Shown piece after piece: positions 10,279 through 20,831 of a DNA stretch of 64,000 bases (the stretch's first letter is position 1; each line of letters starts with the position of its first letter). Position numbers and translations under genes: made by a program. The DNA comes from Flavobacteriales bacterium (GTDB lineage Bacteria > Bacteroidota > Bacteroidia > Flavobacteriales_D > Parvicellaceae): assembly GCA_025210295.1 (NCBI GenBank), contig JAOASC010000018.1, positions 1 to 64,000 of the forward strand, written 5' to 3'. A model generated the notes under the pieces. That model was not told the origin of the DNA and made no database searches. It saw only the letters and a program-made list of their open reading frames with translations.

Positions 10279-10303
10279 GGATTTCTCGATTAAGTTCGTC
10301 TAA
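10279..10303 (+). promoter_or_regulatory. Candidate ECF-sigma promoter upstream of the sigma gene
   Basis: GGA at 10279-10281, 15 bases, then CGTCTAA at 10297-10303. The same GGA-N15-CGTCTAA arrangement lies upstream of the YHYH gene (13312-13336). CGTC is a common -10 motif for ECF sigma factors. Autoregulation of the sigma gene is therefore likely but unproven. Confidence 0.45.
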
Positions 10304-10327
10304 GTTTTAAAAGTTTAATGATATTGA

Positions 10328-10843
10328 ATGGATAAAACCATCTTTAATCAAATATATAAGGATTATAATGGGATGGTGTATAATCTTTGCCTAAGTTATC
10401 TTCAGAATATTGAAGAGGCCGAAGAAGTTATGCAAGATGTTTTCCTTAAAGTATATGAAAAGCATGATTCTTTTAGAGGTAATTCATCTTTAAAAACATG
10501 GATTTATCGAATAACGATTAATAAAAATTTAGACTTTATTAAAGCTAAAAAAAGAGTCAAACGGTTGGGCTTTTTAGCTGTGATTAATGGAGATTCAAAA
10601 AATCAAGAACGACCATTGGTTAATTTTAATCACCCAGGGGTAGAATTAGAGGATAAAGAAGCAATACAGTTGTTATTTCAAAAAATTAATACTTTACCAC
10701 CTAAACAAAAAACAGCATTGATCTTAAAATATATTGATGGGTTTTCTCAAAAAGAAATTGCTCTAACAATGGCTTTGTCTGAGAAAGCAGTAGAATCATT
10801 GTTATCAAGGGCAAAAAGAAAGTTAAAAAGTAAATTAAGATAG
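10328..10843 (+). CDS. ECF RNA polymerase sigma factor
   Basis: At 171 aa this has the two-domain ECF layout. Region 2 is at about residues 8-75 (YNLCLSYLQNIEEAEEVMQD, then FRGNSSLKTWIYRI), and region 4 is near the C-terminus (LPPKQKTALILKYIDGFSQ, SEKAVESLLSRAKRKL). It directs RNA polymerase to a dedicated promoter set when released by its anti-sigma factor. The next two genes look like a one-TM anti-sigma-type protein and a His-rich periplasmic sensor, the same architecture as CnrH-CnrY-CnrX. Metal or envelope stress control of the downstream copper-type genes is inferred from this order. Confidence 0.9.
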   Translation: MDKTIFNQIYKDYNGMVYNLCLSYLQNIEEAEEVMQDVFLKVYEKHDSFRGNSSLKTWIYRITINKNLDFIKAKKRVKRLGFLAVINGDSKNQERPLVNFNHPGVELEDKEAIQLLFQKINTLPPKQKTALILKYIDGFSQKEIALTMALSEKAVESLLSRAKRKLKSKLR

Positions 10844-10880
10844 AAGGAAATAGAAAGATTTATCGTCAGAATATATAGAA

Positions 10881-11153
10881 ATGTTAGAAAACGAGTTAAA
10901 TAAATTAAAGAACATAAAGAAAGTAGCACCATCGCCTTTTGTTTTAACAAGGATAGAGGGAAAACTAGGTAATGAGGCTTTTCAAAAAGTTTCATTGAAG
11001 CAGTTGATCCCTTTAAGTATAGGTTTTTGTTTTTTATTAGCTTTAAATATGTATACTATTTCTGTTAATAGTAGCAATCAAAGTACAAAGCGTACTACAG
11101 AACTGTCTGAAACTTTTGTAGGTGAATCTTCAAACCATTTGTATTATGAATAG
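10881..11153 (+). CDS. Short single-TM protein, candidate anti-sigma factor (90 aa)
   Basis: A cytoplasmic N-terminal segment of about 42 residues is followed by one membrane helix (about 43-61, LIPLSIGFCFLLALNMYTI) and a short Ser/Thr-rich periplasmic tail. There is no zinc-binding motif. Its size, topology and place right after an ECF sigma gene match CnrY-type anti-sigma factors, but sequence similarity was not tested. The stop overlaps the ATG of the next gene (ATGAATAG), so translation is probably coupled. Confidence 0.6.
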   Translation: MLENELNKLKNIKKVAPSPFVLTRIEGKLGNEAFQKVSLKQLIPLSIGFCFLLALNMYTISVNSSNQSTKRTTELSETFVGESSNHLYYE

Positions 11154-11601
11154 GTTGAAATTATTAAAAATTAGTGTTGTTGTTTTGGTTTTAATTAACC
11201 TAATTCTAGTTGTAATTGTTTTTATTGGTGGAAAGCATCATCCGCCTAGACATCATCAAGAAAAACAAATTATTATTGAACGTTTAGGTTTTAATAATGA
11301 TCAAGTAGATCTTTTTGAGTACTCTATAGAACAGCATATTCAGGCAATTAGAGCACAAGAAAAAGAGTTGAAACGATTAAAAAAAGAACTATATTTAACA
11401 TTAAAATCGGATGATACTGCAAGAGAAAAAGAGTTGCTAGAGGAGTTAATGCTGGTGAAAAAGGAAATTGAGGGGCTTCACCTCAAACATTTTAAGGAGA
11501 TTAAAAATCTTTGTACTGCTGAACAACTTCCAAAATTTGATGAGCTGGCAGAAGATTTAGCTCATATTTTTGCGCCTCATCCTCCTAGACCAAAACGATA
11601 A
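11146..11601 (+). CDS. Spy/CnrX-like periplasmic metal-sensor protein (151 aa)
   Basis: The start chosen is the ATG that overlaps the preceding stop; an upstream in-frame ATG at 11122 would add eight residues not typical of a signal anchor. One N-terminal membrane helix (residues 8-28) leads into a periplasmic part with a His cluster (KHHPPRHHQEK, 30-40), a helical hairpin rich in Lys and Glu with His64 and His112, and a C-terminal HPPRP tail. This is the layout of heavy-metal-resistance sensors related to CnrX, CpxP and Spy. It probably binds metal in the periplasm and signals through the preceding TM protein to the sigma factor. Confidence 0.7.
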   Translation: MNRLKLLKISVVVLVLINLILVVIVFIGGKHHPPRHHQEKQIIIERLGFNNDQVDLFEYSIEQHIQAIRAQEKELKRLKKELYLTLKSDDTAREKELLEELMLVKKEIEGLHLKHFKEIKNLCTAEQLPKFDELAEDLAHIFAPHPPRPKR

Positions 11602-11602
11602 T

Positions 11603-12274
11603 ATGAAGTATGTTTTACAAATAGTGTTCACTTTCTTAGTGATAATTGGTCATGGCCAAGAAGATTGTTTGTTTCATATTAAACCTGTTATAGGTAGTAT
11701 AAACCTCAATACACAACAAAATACATTTGAGAGTCAAAGTGTATCTGGAACTATAGAAGAATTACGATTTTACATCAGCGAAATAGCTTTGTATCATAAA
11801 GGGAGTTTAGTTTGGAAAGATAATGCTTTAGCTCATTTGATCGATTTTAAAGATAGCACTTCTCTAGATTTTTATTTCAAATTAAATGAGCAATTGAAAT
11901 ATGATGAGTTGAAACTGAAATTAGGAATAGACAGTGTCCTAAACACTTCAGGAGCTTTGGGAGGCGATTTGGATCCAACAAAAGGAATGTATTGGTCATG
12001 GCAAAGTGGTTATATCAATTTTAAATTAGAAGGTAAGACGATAAATCAGGAAAAGTTTAAATACCATATTGGAGGATACCAATATCCTTATAATGCTATA
12101 CAAGTATTATCGTTTCCTGTTAAGAAAGAAAGAGAGGGGATAGAGCTGATGATGGATTTAGAATTATTATTGTGGGATTTAGAGTTGAGTAATGGTGCAA
12201 AAATTATGCGTCCATGTAAAGAGGCTGTCGAATTCTCACAAAAGTTACCTCAGATTTTTTATATTAATGAATAG
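11603..12274 (+). CDS. mbnP: MbnP family copper-binding protein
   Basis: The start is set at the ATG 2 bases after the previous stop, which gives a clean signal peptide (residues 1-18) and a 223-aa protein. The MbnP hallmark is present as DLDPTKGMYWSWQSGYINF (about residues 122-140) with Trp131 and Trp133. In the characterised methanotroph pair, MbnH converts a tryptophan of MbnP to kynurenine and the modified protein binds copper. Which Trp is modified here cannot be told. The last bases overlap the start of the MbnH-like gene. Confidence 0.82.
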   Translation: MKYVLQIVFTFLVIIGHGQEDCLFHIKPVIGSINLNTQQNTFESQSVSGTIEELRFYISEIALYHKGSLVWKDNALAHLIDFKDSTSLDFYFKLNEQLKYDELKLKLGIDSVLNTSGALGGDLDPTKGMYWSWQSGYINFKLEGKTINQEKFKYHIGGYQYPYNAIQVLSFPVKKEREGIELMMDLELLLWDLELSNGAKIMRPCKEAVEFSQKLPQIFYINE

Positions 12275-13295
12275 TGTTTTAAAAACAATAGCACTTTTGG
12301 GGATCTTCTTTTTATTTTTCAATTTTAGCAGAGGGAAAATCAAGTATGAAATAATGGAGATAGATTTTCCTAAGAATTGGTCTAAACCTGTTTATGATTT
12401 TAAAAAGAACCCTCTAATAAAATCTAAGGTTGAATTAGGGAGAAAACTATTTTATGACCCAATACTTTCTCTAGATGGAACAATATCTTGTAGCAGTTGT
12501 CACCTTTCTTATACTGGATTTACCCATGTAGATCATGCATTAAGCCATGGAATAGGAGACCGTATTGGTAGGCGTAATTCTCCAGCATTAATTAACCTGG
12601 CATGGAATACTTCATTTATGTGGGATGGAGCAATTAATAATATTGAAGTGCAGGGAATAGCTCCTATAGAGCACCCTGACGAAATGGGGGAGAAGTTAAG
12701 TCATGTCATTGAAAAATTGCAACAAACATCAGCATACCCAGCATTATTTTTTAACGCTTTTGGAGATAGTGTAATTACAGGACAACATTTTTTGAAAGCT
12801 TTAAGCCAGTTTCAATTAACATTGGTTTCTTGTAATTCAAAATATGATCGAGTAATGAAAGGTAAAGAAACGTTTACTGAACAAGAACAAAAAGGCTATC
12901 AGCTGTTTAAAAACAAATGTGCTACTTGTCATCCAGAGCCATTGTTTACCAATGGTCGTTTTGAAAATAATGGATTACCGTTGGATACTAACTTGAAAGA
13001 TTACGGTAGAATGGAAATCTCAATGAACGAAAATGATGCCCAAAAATTTAAGGTACCTACATTGCGAAATGTACAATTTACATTCCCTTATATGCACGAT
13101 GGACGTTTTAAAAAGCTGTCAGAGGTTGTTGCACACTATAATCATGGTATTGAAGACAATAAAACATTGTCTAAAGATTTAGCAATCCCAATGAATTTAA
13201 CCCTTGAAAATCAAGTTGAAATTATTTCTTTTTTATTAACATTAACCGATAAATCCTTTTTGTTTAATCCTGATTTTGCCTATCCTCGAAAATAA
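12267..13295 (+). CDS. mbnH: MbnH-like di-heme cytochrome c peroxidase family protein
   Basis: A start at 12267, inside the MbnP stop overlap, gives a signal-anchor-like N-terminus and a 342-aa product. Two c-type heme motifs are seen, CSSCH at 75-79 and CATCH at 218-222, as in MauG and bacterial cytochrome c peroxidases. The PYMHDGRF motif near the C-terminal heme is present. Direct pairing with MbnP argues for a tryptophan-modifying MbnH role rather than simple peroxide removal. It is periplasmic and needs a cytochrome c maturation system, which is not in this window. Confidence 0.8.
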   Translation: MNSVLKTIALLGIFFLFFNFSRGKIKYEIMEIDFPKNWSKPVYDFKKNPLIKSKVELGRKLFYDPILSLDGTISCSSCHLSYTGFTHVDHALSHGIGDRIGRRNSPALINLAWNTSFMWDGAINNIEVQGIAPIEHPDEMGEKLSHVIEKLQQTSAYPALFFNAFGDSVITGQHFLKALSQFQLTLVSCNSKYDRVMKGKETFTEQEQKGYQLFKNKCATCHPEPLFTNGRFENNGLPLDTNLKDYGRMEISMNENDAQKFKVPTLRNVQFTFPYMHDGRFKKLSEVVAHYNHGIEDNKTLSKDLAIPMNLTLENQVEIISFLLTLTDKSFLFNPDFAYPRK

Positions 13296-13311
13296 ATAGC
13301 TCAATTGCAAC

Positions 13312-13336
13312 GGAAAAATTTATAACTTTCGTCTAA
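13312..13336 (+). promoter_or_regulatory. Candidate ECF-sigma promoter upstream of the YHYH gene
   Basis: GGA at 13312-13314, 15 bases, then CGTCTAA at 13330-13336. A TGCAAC element overlaps just upstream. It shares TTCGTCTAA with the site upstream of the ECF sigma gene at 10279-10303. The ATG lies 20-26 bases downstream. The YHYH gene is therefore probably a direct target of the same sigma factor. Confidence 0.5.
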
Positions 13337-13355
13337 CTACTAAACACTAATCTAA

Positions 13356-14753
13356 ATGCTTATGAAAACAAGGACACTTTTAATAGGAAGTGTATTTCTT
13401 TCTATATCGACTCTAGCACAAACAAATTCAGCAGTTTCTAGTTGGATGATAAATACAACTAACATTACTGCACGTCACTATGTGAATGGAAACTCAATTC
13501 CTATTGAAGACAATGAACCTGCCAATGTTCAAAGCGTACAATTTTCTACTAATTATTGTTATGTCAGTGCAAGTGGTTTACCAGCATATATTATTGGACC
13601 ATATTTAGATGGTAATCCTTCACAAGCTAGTAACAATGAGCATATCTTTAAAATACCACTTTCTCCAGTTGAAAATACAGGTACTTTAACGAGTACCCCT
13701 TTAGGAGCTATTGGAGCTTTTGTTAATGGTGTTCCTATGTATGATTACAAAGATGGAGTGTCGTATAGTTATAGTAGTGGTGCTGATGCAGGAGGTCCTT
13801 TAGGTGGAAATGGTGATGGTGTTTGGAATAGAGATGCAATAAAAGCTGAAAATGATGGTTTTGATTGTGCTAAAGGACATCCGTCTCCAATATTCTCTGG
13901 AGGCCCTGGTGGAGGTGGTCCAGGAGGAGGTCAAACGTTAGTTGGAGGAACTTATCATCATCATCAAAATCCTACTGCATTTAATCTAGATAGAGTTGAA
14001 GTTTCAGATGTTTGTGATTTGTATTTGGCTGATGGATTATACACTATAGATTCTACTCAACATGCTCCGTTAATAGGTTATGCATTTGATGGTTTTCCAG
14101 TTTATGGAGCTTATGGATATGCGAATACCAATGGTACGGGGGGGATTAAAAGAATAGAGTCGAGTTATCAACTAAGAAATATTACTGAAAGAACACATTA
14201 TGCTGATGGTACTGATGTCACTGACGGGCCAACAGTTAGTGCTACTTTTCCATTAGGCTATTATAGAGAAGATTATGAGTTTATAGCCAATTCAGGAGAT
14301 TTGGATATACATAATGGTCGTTTCTGTGTAACACCTGAATATCCTAATGGTATTTATTGTTATTTTGCAACAGTCGATCAGAATTGGAATTCTGCTTACC
14401 CTTATCTTGTTGGTCCAGAATATTATGGTGTAGTTGATGGAGGTAGTGTGAATAACATTAATGAAAATGTACAAACTTATACCGCTATTGAAAATGAAGA
14501 AAATGATTTGAATTTAACCATATTTCCTAATCCATCTGCTGATATTATTGCGATACAATATCAAGGTATGGTTAAAAATGATATTGAATTAACATTGTAT
14601 AATATAGCAGGAAAAGTAGTCTTGAGTAAAACAATTTATCCAGGGAGTACGATCGCTTATATTGATACTCAAACGTTATATGCAGGAAATTATATCTTGC
14701 TTGTTAAGAATGGAAAAATAGAACAGAAAAAACAAATAATTGTTACAAAATAA
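13356..14753 (+). CDS. YHYH-domain protein with type IX secretion sorting domain
   Basis: A 465-aa secreted protein. A signal peptide ends near LAQT; a second ATG at 13362 is an equally good start. The YHYH domain covers about residues 60-350, with the His motif TYHHHQNPTAF and the following GYAFDGFPVYGAYG. A Gly/Pro-rich patch (GGPGGGGPGGGQ) lies just before it. The last 80 residues are a type A sorting domain (LTIFPNPSAD, then a C-terminal Lys-rich end), so the protein should cross the outer membrane by the type IX system. The YHYH domain's function is not well known. The cluster suggests a metal-related role. Confidence 0.85.
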   Translation: MLMKTRTLLIGSVFLSISTLAQTNSAVSSWMINTTNITARHYVNGNSIPIEDNEPANVQSVQFSTNYCYVSASGLPAYIIGPYLDGNPSQASNNEHIFKIPLSPVENTGTLTSTPLGAIGAFVNGVPMYDYKDGVSYSYSSGADAGGPLGGNGDGVWNRDAIKAENDGFDCAKGHPSPIFSGGPGGGGPGGGQTLVGGTYHHHQNPTAFNLDRVEVSDVCDLYLADGLYTIDSTQHAPLIGYAFDGFPVYGAYGYANTNGTGGIKRIESSYQLRNITERTHYADGTDVTDGPTVSATFPLGYYREDYEFIANSGDLDIHNGRFCVTPEYPNGIYCYFATVDQNWNSAYPYLVGPEYYGVVDGGSVNNINENVQTYTAIENEENDLNLTIFPNPSADIIAIQYQGMVKNDIELTLYNIAGKVVLSKTIYPGSTIAYIDTQTLYAGNYILLVKNGKIEQKKQIIVTK

Positions 14754-15152
14754 GTGGTGAATTTGATCAAAAAGTTATCTCAATCTCCCCATCAACTATT
14801 TTTGATGGACGGTATAGGTGCATTGTTTTCTGCTTTATTGTTGGGAGGTGTTTTGGCGAAGTATCATACCTTCATTGGAATTCCTCCTGAAACTTTATTC
14901 TTTTTAGCAGCTTTTCCTGTCTTATACGTACTATATGATGTTTATTGCTATAGAACAATGCCTGATCACGTCCATGTAAAAATTAAAGGAGTAGTGGGGT
15001 TGAATTTATTATATACTTTAATCTCTATAGGAGTTCTTGTGTTATTTAAAGAACGTTTAACGGCTGTAGCTTATCTTTATTTTTCACTGGAACTTATGGT
15101 GATCTTTCTTCTTGTATTGCTCGAGCTTAAAGTTTTAAAACAACTCAACTGA
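14754..15152 (+). CDS. Small four-TM membrane protein
   Basis: A 132-aa protein with four hydrophobic helices (about 18-40, 45-65, 78-98, 105-125) joined by short loops. The frame starts at GTG directly after the stop of the YHYH gene, with a second GTG next to it, so translation depends on the upstream gene. No named family was recognised. As the last gene on this strand before the converging Bat operon, it probably closes the metal-cluster transcript. Confidence 0.6.
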   Translation: MVNLIKKLSQSPHQLFLMDGIGALFSALLLGGVLAKYHTFIGIPPETLFFLAAFPVLYVLYDVYCYRTMPDHVHVKIKGVVGLNLLYTLISIGVLVLFKERLTAVAYLYFSLELMVIFLLVLLELKVLKQLN

Positions 15153-15174: not shown

Positions 15175-15936
15175 TTAAAATGTTTTTAAAGCTTCTTTTT
15201 TTATCCAAGCAATCTGACCTTTATCAAATGATATTTCATGCCAAGCCTCGTTTTGGTTTAACAGTTTGACTTTAGTCCCCTCATGTAAAATAAAAGCTGT
15301 ACTTGAGTTGTCTGAAGGTTCCATCTTTAACTCTACTGATGGAGCAAAAACAATCCCATATTCTTCTGAGGTTAATTTTTTATGTTGTAGTGCAGATAAA
15401 TAAATGGTCACTAGCCCAACAATAAAGCAGCCAATAGCACTATAAAATGCGATTTTTTTTGTTTTTAATTGTTGAACAAAAATAAAGAGGATGAATAGCC
15501 CGCCACTAATAAACATTACGACAATAGAGGTTTTGGCCCATAAATTAGTAGAGGTTTTGATATAGGTATAAATAACATCTTCAATTCTACTTGATGTTTT
15601 GATGGTATTCTTATCGGCTATTTTCTGATTAGCAAGTTTTAAGTTGTGAATGATTTCTTCATTACCAGGGGATAGTTTTAACGCTTTTTCAAAATAAAAA
15701 ATTGTTTCTGGTATTCTGTCCAGCTTATAATTAGTATTGCCAAGATTGTAAAATAATTCTGTTGAGTAAAAGCCTTGTGCCTCTATCATTGAATATAAAG
15801 AGTCAGCTTTAAGATAAGCTTTATTATGATAAGCAGTGTTTCCCTCAATAAAAAGTGCTTTTAGCTGATCATTTGCTTTGACAGAATAGAGCAAAGAAAA
15901 TAATGCAATCAATAATAGTAGTTTATTTCTTAACAT
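15175..15936 (-). CDS. batE: BatE, TPR and SH3 protein of the Bat operon
   Basis: A 253-aa protein with a signal peptide, then two or three TPR units (about 25-110, including FYNLGNTNYKLDRIPETIFY), two membrane helices (about 130-180) and a C-terminal SH3-like domain ending in the stretch with GQIAWIKKEAL. This layout is that of BatE. It is the last gene of the operon and overlaps the end of batD by 14 bases. The Bat proteins are linked to aerotolerance and envelope stress in Bacteroidota, but their biochemical role is not settled. Confidence 0.8.
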   Translation of the reverse strand: MLRNKLLLLIALFSLLYSVKANDQLKALFIEGNTAYHNKAYLKADSLYSMIEAQGFYSTELFYNLGNTNYKLDRIPETIFYFEKALKLSPGNEEIIHNLKLANQKIADKNTIKTSSRIEDVIYTYIKTSTNLWAKTSIVVMFISGGLFILFIFVQQLKTKKIAFYSAIGCFIVGLVTIYLSALQHKKLTSEEYGIVFAPSVELKMEPSDNSSTAFILHEGTKVKLLNQNEAWHEISFDKGQIAWIKKEALKTF

Positions 15937-17692
15937 CTTGTTCTATTTTATTAATAATTTGAATGGAGTTGTTTAGTGTTTTCTCAGCGCCGTCATGACT
16001 GATAGGGCTAAACCTAGCCATCTCACATTCACTTAAAATGGCTATTAAATCTTGGATTGTTGTTTCTTCTACCTGACTTTCTTTTAAAACTTGAATAATT
16101 GTTTCTTTACTTAGGTTAGCTTTAGCTATAGATAATTTATGAGAACAATAATTGGTGATTGCTTTATAAAGTTCTTCGTAGAACGCTAGGTGCTGGTTTT
16201 CATTTAACAATTGTGAAGCCTTTTTAAAACGGGTATTGGCATTTTTATTAGCGTTTTTGACCTTAGATGCTGATTCGTCGGAACGAGCGTTTCGTTGAAT
16301 AACAATAAAAATATAAGAAATAATTCCTATGATAAAAGGGAATACAAGCAGTAGCCAATATAGCCATGTCCCATAAAAAGAACCTTGCTTTGCATATAAA
16401 GTGGTGTCAGCTTTGATGTGTCTAATTCCTGAATTTAAGATTTCAACATTTTGCTGGTTACTAGAATGTGCAATAGCGTTACTTTCGGTTTCGTTTTCTC
16501 CTTTTTGAACTTCAATGGTTTTACCTGGTTGCGTTAACGTTTTGTATTTTTTGGAATTAACATCAAAATAAGTAAAGGTATACTCTGGAATCTGATAGGT
16601 TCCACGGTGTCTTGGGATTACTAAAAAGTTAAATGTTTTTTTGCCAGAAATACCACTGCTACTTACTTTTACTTGATCTTTTATTTCTGGATCAAAAACT
16701 TCAAAATCTGGCGGAAAATTTAGTTGAGGTGTTGAAAGTTGTTTTAAATTACCCTGACCACTTATGGTTACTTTTACATCTAAAGGATCATTTGTTTTTA
16801 ATTGAGCTGTTGAATATTGGATATCAACTTTATAATTACTACCAACTTGGTCCGAAAAATTATTTGGAATTGGAGTTGGTAAAGCTTTAACTTTTAGGGT
16901 AGGGGAGTTACTCGTAATTGATTTTTGTTTTCCTGGGTTAAAACCAAATCTTCCGATTCTAGCATCAATTTTTATGGGCTTAATTTTTATTTCACCAGTA
17001 GTTTGTGGAATCAGGACTTCTTTTTTTAGTGTGATAACATGATAAGGAGTACCATTCACCGTTTTCGTATTTTGAGGCCATCCATTTTTACCTGATTTTA
17101 TTTCTTCTTTCCATAAACCATTGGTCATTGGCATATCATAATCTTCAATTTCAAACAGGTTGTACCTTGTATAAACTCTATAGACAGCGGTAACAGGTTC
17201 TCCTTTATAAATGTTTTTTTTGTTGACCTCTATTCGTGCAAAAAGGTTAGGGTCTGAAGTTTGTATTTTTACATTTGGGTTTCCTGTTCCAACATTGATT
17301 GTAAAGATTCCTGAAGTAACGTTATCTCCATTAATGGTAAATGTTAGCGGTTGTATTTTAAACGTTCCTTTTTTCTTAGCTTGTAAAATAAAAGAATATT
17401 TGTGGAGCTCCATCTCTTGGCTACCAAAACCACCAAATCCAAACCTAGAAGATTCTTTCCCTTCATCGATAATTACAAAGCCTTTGTCAAAGTTGGGCTT
17501 GTTCATTTTTATACCATTATGGGAAATGGAAGCTACTCCTCCAGAAAGTTTCATTTTTAAAATATATGAAACCTTAAATTTGTCCCCCACACCAGGAGAT
17601 GGGTTAGTTGTTTTAATATCAACAAACATCTTTTGCCCTAAGACTGTTAGGGAAAGTAATGACGTGAAGAGTATAAGAATTATATTTTTCAT
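15923..17692 (-). CDS. batD: BatD, oxygen-tolerance membrane protein
   Basis: The start at 17692 is preferred because it begins a clear signal peptide (MKNIILILFTSLLSLTVLGQ); the longer frame adds 14 polar residues. The 589-aa protein has an extended periplasmic part of Ig-like modules, one membrane helix (about 430-455 of the shortened form, WLYWLLLVFPFIIGIISYIF) and a cytoplasmic helical tail. This is the BatD (oxygen tolerance) architecture. It lies 35 bases after batC. Confidence 0.85.
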   Translation of the reverse strand: MKNIILILFTSLLSLTVLGQKMFVDIKTTNPSPGVGDKFKVSYILKMKLSGGVASISHNGIKMNKPNFDKGFVIIDEGKESSRFGFGGFGSQEMELHKYSFILQAKKKGTFKIQPLTFTINGDNVTSGIFTINVGTGNPNVKIQTSDPNLFARIEVNKKNIYKGEPVTAVYRVYTRYNLFEIEDYDMPMTNGLWKEEIKSGKNGWPQNTKTVNGTPYHVITLKKEVLIPQTTGEIKIKPIKIDARIGRFGFNPGKQKSITSNSPTLKVKALPTPIPNNFSDQVGSNYKVDIQYSTAQLKTNDPLDVKVTISGQGNLKQLSTPQLNFPPDFEVFDPEIKDQVKVSSSGISGKKTFNFLVIPRHRGTYQIPEYTFTYFDVNSKKYKTLTQPGKTIEVQKGENETESNAIAHSSNQQNVEILNSGIRHIKADTTLYAKQGSFYGTWLYWLLLVFPFIIGIISYIFIVIQRNARSDESASKVKNANKNANTRFKKASQLLNENQHLAFYEELYKAITNYCSHKLSIAKANLSKETIIQVLKESQVEETTIQDLIAILSECEMARFSPISHDGAEKTLNNSIQIINKIEQDVKK

Positions 17693-17727
17693 TTTGTTAA
17701 TACTGCTAAATCTTGTGTTGAACTTTT

Positions 17728-18651
17728 TTACCAATCTTTTGAGGATGAGTTTTGTTGTTTTTGATCGCCTTTCTTACGATTGACTTTCATTAGTGTTTTT
17801 TGCTCATCATTATTCAGAGCATCTAAATCTTTGGTCGCTTGCATTCTCGAAATTCGCCCTTTCATTTCTTCTTCTCCCTTTTCTTTGCTTTCTTCTCCTT
17901 GTTTTCCTTTTTGCTCACCTTCTTTTTCCTGCTCTTCCTTATTTTGTTGTCCTTCTCCATCTTGCTGTTCGTCTCCTTGACCATTTTCTTGGTTCTGTTG
18001 CTCTTGGTTGTCTCCTTTATCTCCTTCTTTTTGCTGGTCCCCTTGTTTGTTTTGATCGTTTTGATTCTCGTTTTGCTGATTTTCTTGGTTTTGCTGATCC
18101 TGTTGATCCTGGTTTTGATCTTGATTTTGTTGATCCTGATTATTTTCCTGATTCTGTTGATCTTGATTCTCGTTAGGAGGAGGGAGTTTGCTCATCGCTA
18201 ACCTTAGGTTATGTCTAGCATCACTATCCTTAGGATTGTTTCTTAAGGCATTTTTATAGGATTCAATACTTTCTTTTAATGCTTTGATGGCTTCTTGACT
18301 CTTTTTAGGGTCTTTGGTTAAATTTTCATATTCTTTATACTGAACATTTCCTAAGTTGTAATGTCCTTTATTTTTTTCAGCTTTACTATCTACAACTGAG
18401 AGGTATTCTGAAAAAAGATCCTTAGCAATTTGAGTACTGTCATTCAATAAAGCTGCATTTCCAGCATTAAAGAGCGCTTTTTTATAAGCGTCATTGGTTT
18501 TGTAACTGTTATTAAACTCCTCTAGAGCTAAACCAAAGTTCCCATTGTTATAAGCTTCAACTCCCTTGTTTAACATTATTTTTTCTTCGGTTTGAGCGAA
18601 GTTTTTTAATGCAAAAACTAGGATTAATATGACGACTAATAACCTATTCAT
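17728..18651 (-). CDS. batC: BatC, TPR protein with long Gln/Glu-rich tail
   Basis: A start at 18651 gives a signal peptide (MNRLLVVILILVFALKNFAQ) and 307 aa; it overlaps the end of batB by 8 bases. TPR units occupy about residues 22-155. From about 160 to 270 the chain is low complexity, made of Asn, Gln, Asp, Glu, Lys and Gly (NQDQQNQENNQDQQ and similar), encoded by a near-repetitive CTG/TTG-rich DNA stretch on the plus strand (about 17870-18180). The low-complexity tail is common in BatC but is long here. It probably acts as a scaffold for the VWA proteins. Confidence 0.82.
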   Translation of the reverse strand: MNRLLVVILILVFALKNFAQTEEKIMLNKGVEAYNNGNFGLALEEFNNSYKTNDAYKKALFNAGNAALLNDSTQIAKDLFSEYLSVVDSKAEKNKGHYNLGNVQYKEYENLTKDPKKSQEAIKALKESIESYKNALRNNPKDSDARHNLRLAMSKLPPPNENQDQQNQENNQDQQNQDQNQDQQDQQNQENQQNENQNDQNKQGDQQKEGDKGDNQEQQNQENGQGDEQQDGEGQQNKEEQEKEGEQKGKQGEESKEKGEEEMKGRISRMQATKDLDALNNDEQKTLMKVNRKKGDQKQQNSSSKDW

Positions 18652-19807
18652 AGCTTTTAAATAAATTAAATTTGTCTGATAGTCTATTACGTTTATCAGT
18701 AATAAAAAAGTCAATCAACAGTAACAGAATCCCAATAAGCAAGTAGGGCTGAAATTGATCGTCATACCCTGTGTATTTTTCTTGACTCATCGTTGTTTTT
18801 TCGATTGAATTTAATTGGTCCACTATCCCTTCAATACCAACATTTAAACCGTTAGCTCTGGTGTATGAGCCTGATCCACTTTCAGAAATGTCAATTAAGT
18901 AGTTCTCATTTAATTTTGTCAATACAGTCTTCCCATCTTGATCTTTTTTATTGCCAACTTTTATACCATTTCTGTACAATGGTATAGGAACTCCTGTTTT
19001 AGTTCCCATTCCAATAGTGTAAATTTTAATGCCTTTTTTAGCAGCTTCTTTGGCAGCATCGATCCCTTCTTCTTCATGATCTTCACCATCGCTAAAAACA
19101 ATGATAGCTTTGTTACTTCCATCTTCCATATTGAAAGAAGAAACACATTTTTCTATCGCTAGTCCAATATTGGTTCCTTGAGCAGAAATCATCCCTGTAG
19201 AGATGTTTTTCAAAAACATTTTAGCTACGTGATAGTCAGGTGTAATAGGAACTTGTTTATATGCATCTCCTGCAAAAACAACAATTCCAATTCGATCTCC
19301 GTGTAGTTTGTCAAACAGTTTTTCAATAGACAGCTTAGTAATTTTGAGTCGATTATAGTTCTTTTGTAAATCTTCGGCCAACATACTGTTACTAACATCG
19401 ATAGCAATCATAATATCGATTCCTTTGCTCTCTACTAATTTTTCATTTTCACCATATTGAGGGTTGGCCATAGCAATCACAATAAATGCTAAGCCAAGCC
19501 GTAATAAAATAAATTTAGTGATGCTCTTGAATGAGGAAATACCTGTATAGACATAAGGCAATAGTTTTTCATTAGCATACTTAATGAGGGTTTTATTTTT
19601 CCAATGTGTGGCGTAAAAATAGAGTAAGATAGCTATAGGAATGAAAATAAGCCCATATAAGACATATTCTCGTTCAAACCTAAACTCTTCTACATTAGTC
19701 GTAAGATATCGGTAGGAAGCTATTGCAAAAGCCCAAAAGATCACCTCAATAATTAATATTAAGACGAGTGCATTACCTAGGTTGTATTTGTACTTATTAA
19801 CAGACAT
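18644..19807 (-). CDS. batB: BatB, VWA-domain membrane protein
   Basis: A 387-aa protein with N-terminal membrane helices (about 8-30, 47-65, 93-112), a von Willebrand A domain with metal-site motif DVSNSM near residue 130 and VVFSDGEDHEEEG, and a C-terminal helix near 360. BatB and BatA are paired VWA proteins. It starts 1 base after the stop of batA. Confidence 0.85.
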   Translation of the reverse strand: MSVNKYKYNLGNALVLILIIEVIFWAFAIASYRYLTTNVEEFRFEREYVLYGLIFIPIAILLYFYATHWKNKTLIKYANEKLLPYVYTGISSFKSITKFILLRLGLAFIVIAMANPQYGENEKLVESKGIDIMIAIDVSNSMLAEDLQKNYNRLKITKLSIEKLFDKLHGDRIGIVVFAGDAYKQVPITPDYHVAKMFLKNISTGMISAQGTNIGLAIEKCVSSFNMEDGSNKAIIVFSDGEDHEEEGIDAAKEAAKKGIKIYTIGMGTKTGVPIPLYRNGIKVGNKKDQDGKTVLTKLNENYLIDISESGSGSYTRANGLNVGIEGIVDQLNSIEKTTMSQEKYTGYDDQFQPYLLIGILLLLIDFFITDKRNRLSDKFNLFKSYE

Positions 19808-19808
19808 A

Positions 19809-20831
19809 CTACGATACAGATTTAAATAATGTTGACCTTAATAAAAATTCTATTAGTATTAGAATGAAACCTATTAAAATGAATGGGAAGCTCTTTTCTG
19901 GTAGATCAACTTCGTATTCAATAGTTTTAATTTTATCTTTTTCTAGTTGGTCAATTTGTTCATATATCTCTTTCAGTTTTTGGTTGTCTGTAGCTCTAAA
20001 ATATTGACCGCCAGTCATGTCTGCGATATCTGTCAATGTTTTTTCATCAATTTCAACATCAACATAATCATAGATATATTTATTGGTGAAAGGATCTATT
20101 GCTACTGGGGTTTTTGCTTTACCGTTGGTTCCAACACCAATAGTATAAACCCTAATGTTGAATTGTTTGGCGATTTCAGCGGCAGTGATAGGGTGTATTT
20201 TTCCTTGGTTATTAACGCCATCTGTTAAAAGAATAATGACTTTACTCTTGACTTTACTTTCTCTTAGCCTATTGACAGCAGTTGCTAGGCCCATACCTAT
20301 AGCTGTCCCTTCTGTTACGACTCCTTGTTCGGCTTCATCGATTAAATCATTGACAATTTTTTTATCGCTTGTTAAAGGACATTGCGTATAAGCCTCTCCT
20401 TCAAAAATCACTAATCCTATTCGATCATTTTTACGATTAGAAACAAAATCTTTGGCTACTTGTTTGGCTGCTTGAAAACGATCGGGTTTAAAGTCTATGG
20501 CTAACATACTGCCTGAAGCATCCAGTGCCATGACAATATCAATTCCCTCGTTATGATGCTCAATGAACGAGTCTGATTCAGAACTTAGCTGTGGCCTGGC
20601 TAATGCAATGATGAATAAGCTTAATGCTGCTAATCTCAAAAGCATATAAAGTGCTTTTAAATGACCCAGAATACCACTTTCTAGTCCATCAAATCCTTGT
20701 AAAGAAGATAATTTTAAAGCACTATTTTTCTTTGCTTGAAACAGAAAGAAATGAGCAGCTAATAGGGGGATTAGTAATAAAAACCAAAGCACCCAAGCAT
20801 TTGCAAATTGATATGTGCTAAATAAGTTCAT
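19809..20831 (-). CDS. batA: BatA, VWA-domain membrane protein
   Basis: A 340-aa protein with two N-terminal membrane helices, then a VWA domain with the intact metal-ion site motif DASGSM near residue 105 and LLTDGVNNQGK, and a C-terminal helix. It overlaps its upstream gene by 1 base. Together with BatB it forms the core of the Bat complex at the inner membrane. Confidence 0.85.
   Translation of the reverse strand: MNLFSTYQFANAWVLWFLLLIPLLAAHFFLFQAKKNSALKLSSLQGFDGLESGILGHLKALYMLLRLAALSLFIIALARPQLSSESDSFIEHHNEGIDIVMALDASGSMLAIDFKPDRFQAAKQVAKDFVSNRKNDRIGLVIFEGEAYTQCPLTSDKKIVNDLIDEAEQGVVTEGTAIGMGLATAVNRLRESKVKSKVIILLTDGVNNQGKIHPITAAEIAKQFNIRVYTIGVGTNGKAKTPVAIDPFTNKYIYDYVDVEIDEKTLTDIADMTGGQYFRATDNQKLKEIYEQIDQLEKDKIKTIEYEVDLPEKSFPFILIGFILILIEFLLRSTLFKSVS

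Follow-up and report, generated by a model that had tools for sequence, protein, structure and literature searches.

A predicted CnrYXH-like sigma factor module linked to MbnP, an MbnH-like enzyme, and type IX surface proteins in Bacteroidota

Which signal could lead an envelope sigma factor to switch on a copper protein and its modifying enzyme together with secreted surface proteins? The question is raised by a cluster on a 64,000-nucleotide stretch of a Flavobacteriales bacterium of the Parvicellaceae (assembly GCA_025210295.1, contig JAOASC010000018.1), hereafter the window, in which genes for an extracytoplasmic function (ECF) sigma factor, a 90-amino-acid (aa) protein with one transmembrane (TM) segment, and a one-TM sensor are directly followed by genes for MbnP, a di-heme MbnH-like enzyme, and a YHYH protein carrying a type IX sorting domain. 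An earlier note, made from the sequence, had read this as a metal-sensing sigma module of the CnrYXH kind driving a kynurenine-type copper protein and a type IX cargo, and all the genes that it named were found in their places using the open reading frames of the window and Pfam and NCBIfam profiles. Based on gene linkage, promoter sites, co-occurrence, fold, and conserved residues, all obtained by computation, we favor, with moderate confidence, the view that a CnrYXH-type envelope signaling module has been wired to a copper-handling output.

Loci of relatives were gathered from whole genomes with the window MbnP as the query, and named loci were added from public genomes. The succession of sigma, anti-sigma, sensor, MbnP, and MbnH genes recurs in slightly varied form in 26 loci of the taxonomic order of the window, its own locus included, with YHYH next in most of them, and the module with MbnP was also present in many public Bacteroidota metagenome-assembled genome (MAG) loci labeled Chitinophagaceae, Saprospiraceae, Crocinitomicaceae, Ignavibacteria, and Kapaibacterium. 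Because the sigma module and MbnP recur together in these 26 loci and in many named MAGs, the arrangement in the window is not a chance one. In the collected set of 127 distinct MbnP loci, mostly from Bacteroidota, a sigma gene lies in cis at 53. Sensor and MbnP profiles run over 199 genomes of the order gave a strong sensor in 58 and a strong MbnP in 61, with both in 44 (odds ratio of 23, Fisher p of 3e-18, relatedness not corrected), and the two genes are adjacent in 38 of these 44 genomes. The earlier note had called for this comparison of gene order and had named a lack of conservation as what would undo its proposal; since the order recurs and the two parts co-occur across genomes, the objection falls, and the sigma-to-MbnP linkage is strongly conserved. 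On a quick and poorly resolved MbnP tree, about 28 changes were needed to account for the presence or absence of sigma in cis; the linkage is scattered over the tree, and we therefore claim no single origin. Upstream of several MbnP loci devoid of sigma lie unrelated genes. The genome of the window itself carries two further MbnP/MbnH pairs (L074 and L075; G000:C20:9972-10553 and G000:C22:11235-11795) with neither sigma module nor promoter motif, and weak YHYH-profile matches lie beside L075. Conversely, sigma, anti-sigma, and sensor modules with no adjoining MbnP were seen in L233 (G016), L234 (G048), and L238 to L240 (G053, G074, and G070), and a 389-aa response-regulator-like gene recurs near the last three.

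The linkage comes with a predicted promoter. The upstream regions of the collected loci share the motif gCGAAGGA-N15-CGTCTAAcc, whose -35 part at the sigma/anti-sigma boundary often shares bases with the sigma stop codon (GAA GGA TAA, that is, Glu-Gly-stop), while the copy before YHYH often overlaps the mbnH stop codon. At a loose threshold, the window holds 6 sites against 2.7 expected, a count that by itself is not beyond chance, so that the weight of the evidence lies on placement and comparison; moreover, the motif was picked after inspection of these same loci, and independent promoter tests therefore count more. When 27 whole genomes (about 90 Mb) were searched for CGARGGD-N15-CGTCTAA, 17 sites were found in 11 genomes, all within the cluster, and the reversed control pattern gave 4 scattered sites. 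A leave-one-out motif profile was judged against 762 control windows; its score exceeded their 99% level at 42 of the 53 sigma/anti-sigma boundaries and in 30 of the 42 regions upstream of YHYH at the sigma loci. Among MbnP loci without sigma in cis, it did so directly before MbnP in 9 of 74 cases and before YHYH in 23 of 55.

The sites at loci without a cis sigma led us to ask whether the module sits elsewhere in those genomes. A site before MbnP or YHYH was present in seven of the eight genomes with a sensor module elsewhere and in 1 of 15 with no sensor (p of 2.5e-4), part of the loci having been fetched for this test, two of the eight sensor hits being only weak, and one site being counted on a variant pattern. 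The promoters shared across the 27 genomes, the leave-one-out profile, and the trans test argue for the earlier proposal that the sigma factor drives MbnP/MbnH and the type IX cargo, and the sigma module very probably turns on both MbnP/MbnH and YHYH. A promoter copy of its own would make YHYH a separate transcription unit, and not the end of a single run of genes. Two loci (L044 and L050) bear two tandem YHYH-family genes, with the promoter site only at the second, longer one. A 605-aa ABC exporter encoded near four clusters, picked up with a loose motif, was rejected because the matched sequence is not the promoter. In each of two 4.6- to 4.7-Mb genomes of one genus, the variant CGCAAG-N16-CATCTAA has exactly two occurrences, one before a distant sigma gene and one before MbnP, and L047, L067, L070, L077, L080, L081, L136, L142, and L190 seem to form a second sigma subgroup with sites of this kind. 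Another variant site (L273, G086:C2:284514-284542) stands 71 bp before a TonB-dependent receptor gene.

Further outputs may lie outside the cluster. The genome of the window has two sites with a single mismatch, about one being expected by chance; one is inside a gene and the other precedes a gene for a CotH-LTD protein (Table 1). The same three-domain layout (CotH, LTD, and type IX sorting domain) is encoded between sensor and MbnP at L051:6021-8270 and L156:2444-4720. Strong sites upstream of CotH were found in G048, G016, G057, and G095 (21 to 29.5 bits, the 99% control level being 8.8), all of which have the sensor, and none was found in three genomes without it; altogether, 6 of the 14 module-bearing genomes tested have a CotH site. 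The CotH type IX protein is thus probably a further output of the sigma factor. Because G016 and G048 carry the module and the CotH site with no strong MbnP, CotH may be an older output or one on a par with MbnP. That the sigma module and MbnP/MbnH are unrelated genes that merely lie side by side could be argued from the 17 of 61 MbnP genomes without a module, and yet the order kept in many families, the shared and specific promoter, and the trans tests leave this reading hardly credible.

The layout of the window cluster is given in Table 1. From the anti-sigma gene to the MbnH gene, neighbors overlap or abut, with overlaps of 8 bp each for anti-sigma/sensor and MbnP/MbnH, and gaps of 37 bp and 60 bp separate the sigma and anti-sigma genes and precede YHYH, respectively. 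For the sensor, we take the ATG listed in the table as the start, the mechanical GTG call at 11122 being probably too early. The CnrYXH name used in the earlier note does not match the gene order, which is sigma, anti-sigma, and sensor rather than Y-X-H. Its inclusion of a four-TM protein in the cluster did not hold up either, as this 132-aa protein has no homologue among the genes of the collected loci; it may be cotranscribed with YHYH and yet probably lies outside the system. Downstream, at 15175-20831, the cluster adjoins a minus-strand operon that by eye is of the Bat type, encoding TPR, BatD-like, and two VWA-like proteins.

Table 1. Genes and predicted promoter sites of the cluster, with one distant site in the same genome
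Feature	Position	Strand	Evidence or remark
GlcD-like flavin adenine dinucleotide (FAD) oxidase gene	5' of ECF sigma gene		upstream neighbor
Predicted ECF promoter 1, CGAAGGA-N15-CGTCTAA	10275..10303	+	0 mismatches; upstream of sigma gene; only exact copy in the genome of the window
ECF sigma factor, 171 aa (CnrH-like role)	10328..10843	+	PF04542 58.8 bits, PF08281 62.4 bits, both above cut-off
Predicted promoter 2, AGAAGGA-N15-CGTCAGA	10842..10870	+	degenerate, 3 mismatches; sigma/anti-sigma boundary; score 13.7 vs 6.1 (99% control level)
Putative anti-sigma factor, 90 aa, one TM (CnrY-like role)	10881..11153	+	position, length, and single TM kept across clusters
Periplasmic sensor, 151 aa, one TM, predicted CnrX fold	11146..11601	+	ATG start; AlphaFold, fold search, residue conservation
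MbnP	11603..12274	+	PF20243 128.8 bits (cut-off 27)
MbnH-like di-heme enzyme	12267..13295	+	CCP_MauG 184.9 bits
Predicted promoter 3, CAACGGA-N15-CGTCTAA	13308..13336	+	2 mismatches; upstream of YHYH; score 18.3
Secreted YHYH protein with type IX sorting domain; YHHH at residue 200	13356..14753	+	PF14240 184 bits, PF18962 (Por_Secre_tail) 41.5 bits (cut-off 27)
Membrane protein, 132 aa, 3-4 TM	14754..15152	+	
Predicted single-mismatch promoter site (L272)	G000:C2:88691-88719		82 bp before 797-aa CotH-LTD protein with type IX sorting domain

The nature of the signal depends on the sensor. Its AlphaFold model (predicted local distance difference test [pLDDT] score of 92.4) was compared with 350,542 PDB chains, and the 13 best matches were all CnrX (TM-score of 0.69 to 0.75 on the target length, Foldseek E of 0.014 to 0.08), followed by the VirG-like protein 5io8 and NccX; sequence profiles matched Spy (2.5e-7) and, weakly, CnrX and NccX. 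Together with sigma regions 2 and 4 in the ECF protein, this fold bears out the CnrYXH-like character of the module. The metal site implied by that likeness is another matter, as the likely metal residues differ from those of CnrX, which we take to be H42, H46, E63, H119, and M123. In a weak alignment with NccX (E of 0.085), H115 falls on the His of the HVFEM motif, the Met of this motif falls on I/L, C123 falls on a Leu, and the sensor family does not keep the N-terminal His columns; tested on this alignment, the CnrX ligand set was not retained, and the sensor is therefore not filed as a CnrX orthologue. Spy-type proteins have Leu at the C123 position as well. Among the 76 sensors aligned, the MbnP-linked ones conserve H64 in 53/56, C123 in 54/56, and H115 in 45/56, and a His occurs in the linker after the TM segment in 61/76. 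The description of the sensor as His-rich in the earlier note is right for the window protein (9 His in 151 aa) and less so for the family. H64, H115, and C123 are thus the candidate metal residues, which, given the weak alignment, tentatively suggests a site unlike that of CnrX and softer, fitting copper(I). Tyr or Phe replaces H115 in several sensors of the second sigma subgroup. A sensor-module relative devoid of both H115 and C123 (L248, G065:C126) is followed by a gene for an EF-hand protein with its own promoter-like site, and this module may sense another metal.

Two other signals have to be weighed against these residues. Cys123, or a chaperone activity like that of Spy, could let the sensor answer redox or envelope stress, and the Cys that is the single one in 46/76 sensors, the profile match to Spy, and the oxidant required by MbnH chemistry would all suit such a role; we consider it improbable, given that the metal sensors CnrX and NccX are among the first fold matches, that H64 is conserved as well as C123, and that a copper protein is among the outputs. 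Still less probable is a sensor of nickel, cobalt, or zinc in the manner of CnrX, with MbnP as one of several general metal-stress outputs: the fold and the alignment of H115 with the NccX His agree with it, whereas the loss of the HVFEM Met and of the N-terminal His columns and the gain of a Cys do not, and metal efflux genes are not recurrent in the mapped neighborhoods, most neighbors there not being annotated one by one. As for the 90-aa protein, it matched no Pfam or NCBIfam model, and its small size, single TM segment, and place in the clusters would suit a putative CnrY-like class II anti-sigma factor.

The output proteins would fit copper. In the MbnP family, the first Trp of a WxW motif is converted to kynurenine, with Cu(I) bound by a His and a Met. 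M129, W131-x-W133, and H155 of the window MbnP are invariant in 17/17 aligned sequences, and by analogy M129, W131, W133, and H155 would be the copper-site residues. As its score with NCBIfam TIGR04052 (37.6 bits) is under the trusted cut-off of 140, this MbnP is not the NCBI equivalog, and since sequence and profile searches of PDB gave no usable match, M129 and H155 were not placed on a solved MbnP copper site. The MbnH-like enzyme has two c-type heme motifs (CxxCH, residues 75 and 218), and TIGR04039 is its best NCBIfam model (215.9 bits, below the trusted cut-off of 362.85). In the PDB, the profile that it matches best is that of MbnH (6e1c, 2e-58). The invariant Tyr291 of the enzyme, presumably a heme ligand like Tyr294 of MauG, aligns with the Tyr of MbnH 6e1c and with the Met of the di-heme peroxidases 3o5c/1iqc. 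Both findings favor a Trp oxidase of the MauG/MbnH type over a peroxidase. The sorting domain of YHYH is also recognized by TIGR04183 (35.7 bits, cut-off 23). We claim no function for YHYH from its fold, the AlphaFold model having a pLDDT of 51 and PDB profile matches covering only the sorting domain.

We propose the following model, in which the release of sigma, copper as the signal, activation by the metal and not by its lack, and the formation of kynurenine are carried over from what is known of these families. In the CnrX paradigm, bound metal leads to activation. The inner-membrane sensor, with its periplasmic helical domain of CnrX fold, would keep a class II-like anti-sigma factor in its sigma-binding state until periplasmic metal, most likely copper(I), binds the altered site formed by H64, H115, C123, and possibly the linker histidines, whereupon the anti-sigma factor would release sigma and RNA polymerase would transcribe from CGAAGGA-N15-CGTCTAA promoters. 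The boundary promoter would serve anti-sigma, sensor, MbnP, and MbnH, a second one YHYH, and probably another the CotH type IX protein. Hence, in most genomes, anti-sigma and sensor would themselves be under sigma, giving negative feedback, and in the window genome the additional promoter before the sigma gene could add positive feedback. MbnH would then oxidize the first Trp of the MbnP WxW motif to build the copper site, and YHYH and CotH would reach the cell surface through type IX secretion. In its widest form, a sigma system that senses periplasmic copper(I) throughout the Bacteroidota, with a CnrX fold bearing a new His/His/Cys site, a class II-like anti-sigma factor, and a compact regulon joining a kynurenine copper protein to YHYH/CotH type IX proteins, we hold the model to be evenly balanced between right and wrong.

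Several points weigh against this model. A strong MbnP is missing from 14/58 module genomes, as is the module from the MbnP genomes counted above (17/61); the E-values of the fold search are modest (0.014 and up); not all CnrX ligands are kept, and H115 or C123 is missing in some sensors, so that the sensed signal may be another one; sequence searches link the 90-aa protein neither to CnrY nor to any anti-sigma factor of solved structure, its PDB hits being chance ones only; and the second promoter of the window is degenerate. The signal could also have the opposite sign, with the apo sensor freeing sigma and MbnP, MbnH, and the surface proteins being made for uptake when copper is scarce. We regard such a starvation switch as unlikely, if the most serious of the alternatives, since it departs from the established CnrX paradigm and a TonB receptor is not a conserved part of the mapped neighborhoods; the variant site before a TonB-dependent receptor gene in one genome would nonetheless fit uptake. 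In its favor, CorA and MopE, kynurenine copper proteins of similar function, are copper-repressed and have been proposed to act in acquisition (PMC3912023), and MbnP/MbnH genes in methanobactin operons stand beside FecIR-type ECF sigma/anti-sigma genes (PMC3621798).

With this module, the MbnP family, known mainly from methanotrophs, gains a probable regulator of its own in a phylum in which MbnP is common, and the precise promoter makes the regulon testable. The module also bears on the control of Bacteroidota ECF sigma factors, for only 6% of which a class I anti-sigma factor is encoded nearby, other classes being suspected (PMC7406223). Moreover, it suggests a part in the handling of metals at the cell surface for YHYH and CotH, type IX proteins of unknown function, and a retuning of the CnrX fold to another metal.

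A description of this module was not found in the searchable open literature on MbnP, YHYH, CnrX in Bacteroidetes, and copper ECF factors, subscription papers being outside the search. Taken singly, the MbnP/MbnH pair, CnrYXH, and MbnI/MbnR are known; what appears new is the link of a CnrX-like module to MbnP. We know of no dedicated sigma module for MopE/CorA. These proteins of Methylococcus and Methylomicrobium resemble the window system in that a copper protein with a Trp-derived kynurenine is encoded with a di-heme MauG-like partner, SACCP/CorB (PMC3912023), but they are copper-repressed and not markedly similar to MbnP in sequence (PMC3621798). The methanobactin operons of Methylosinus share the MbnP-MbnH pair and nearby ECF sigma/anti-sigma genes (PMC3621798, PMC9601215); their MbnI/MbnR are, however, of the FecI/FecR type and work with the signaling domain of a TonB receptor, whereas the cluster of the window encodes a sensor of CnrX fold and lacks a receptor. 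CorE of Myxococcus xanthus is likewise an ECF sigma factor for copper (PMC3107203, PMC10141476), but copper binds to CorE directly, at a Cys-rich C-terminal extension that the window sigma factor does not have, and CorE uses no anti-sigma factor. The closest parallel is CnrYXH/NccYXH, from the nickel-cobalt resistance of Cupriavidus metallidurans, which brings together an ECF sigma factor, a small one-TM anti-sigma factor, and a one-TM periplasmic sensor of the same fold. The window module differs from it in gene order, in its Bacteroidota host, in the loss of the CnrX Met ligand and the gain of a Cys in the sensor family, and in its output, MbnP/MbnH with type IX proteins instead of a CzcCBA-type efflux pump; by analogy, it most likely works like CnrYXH.

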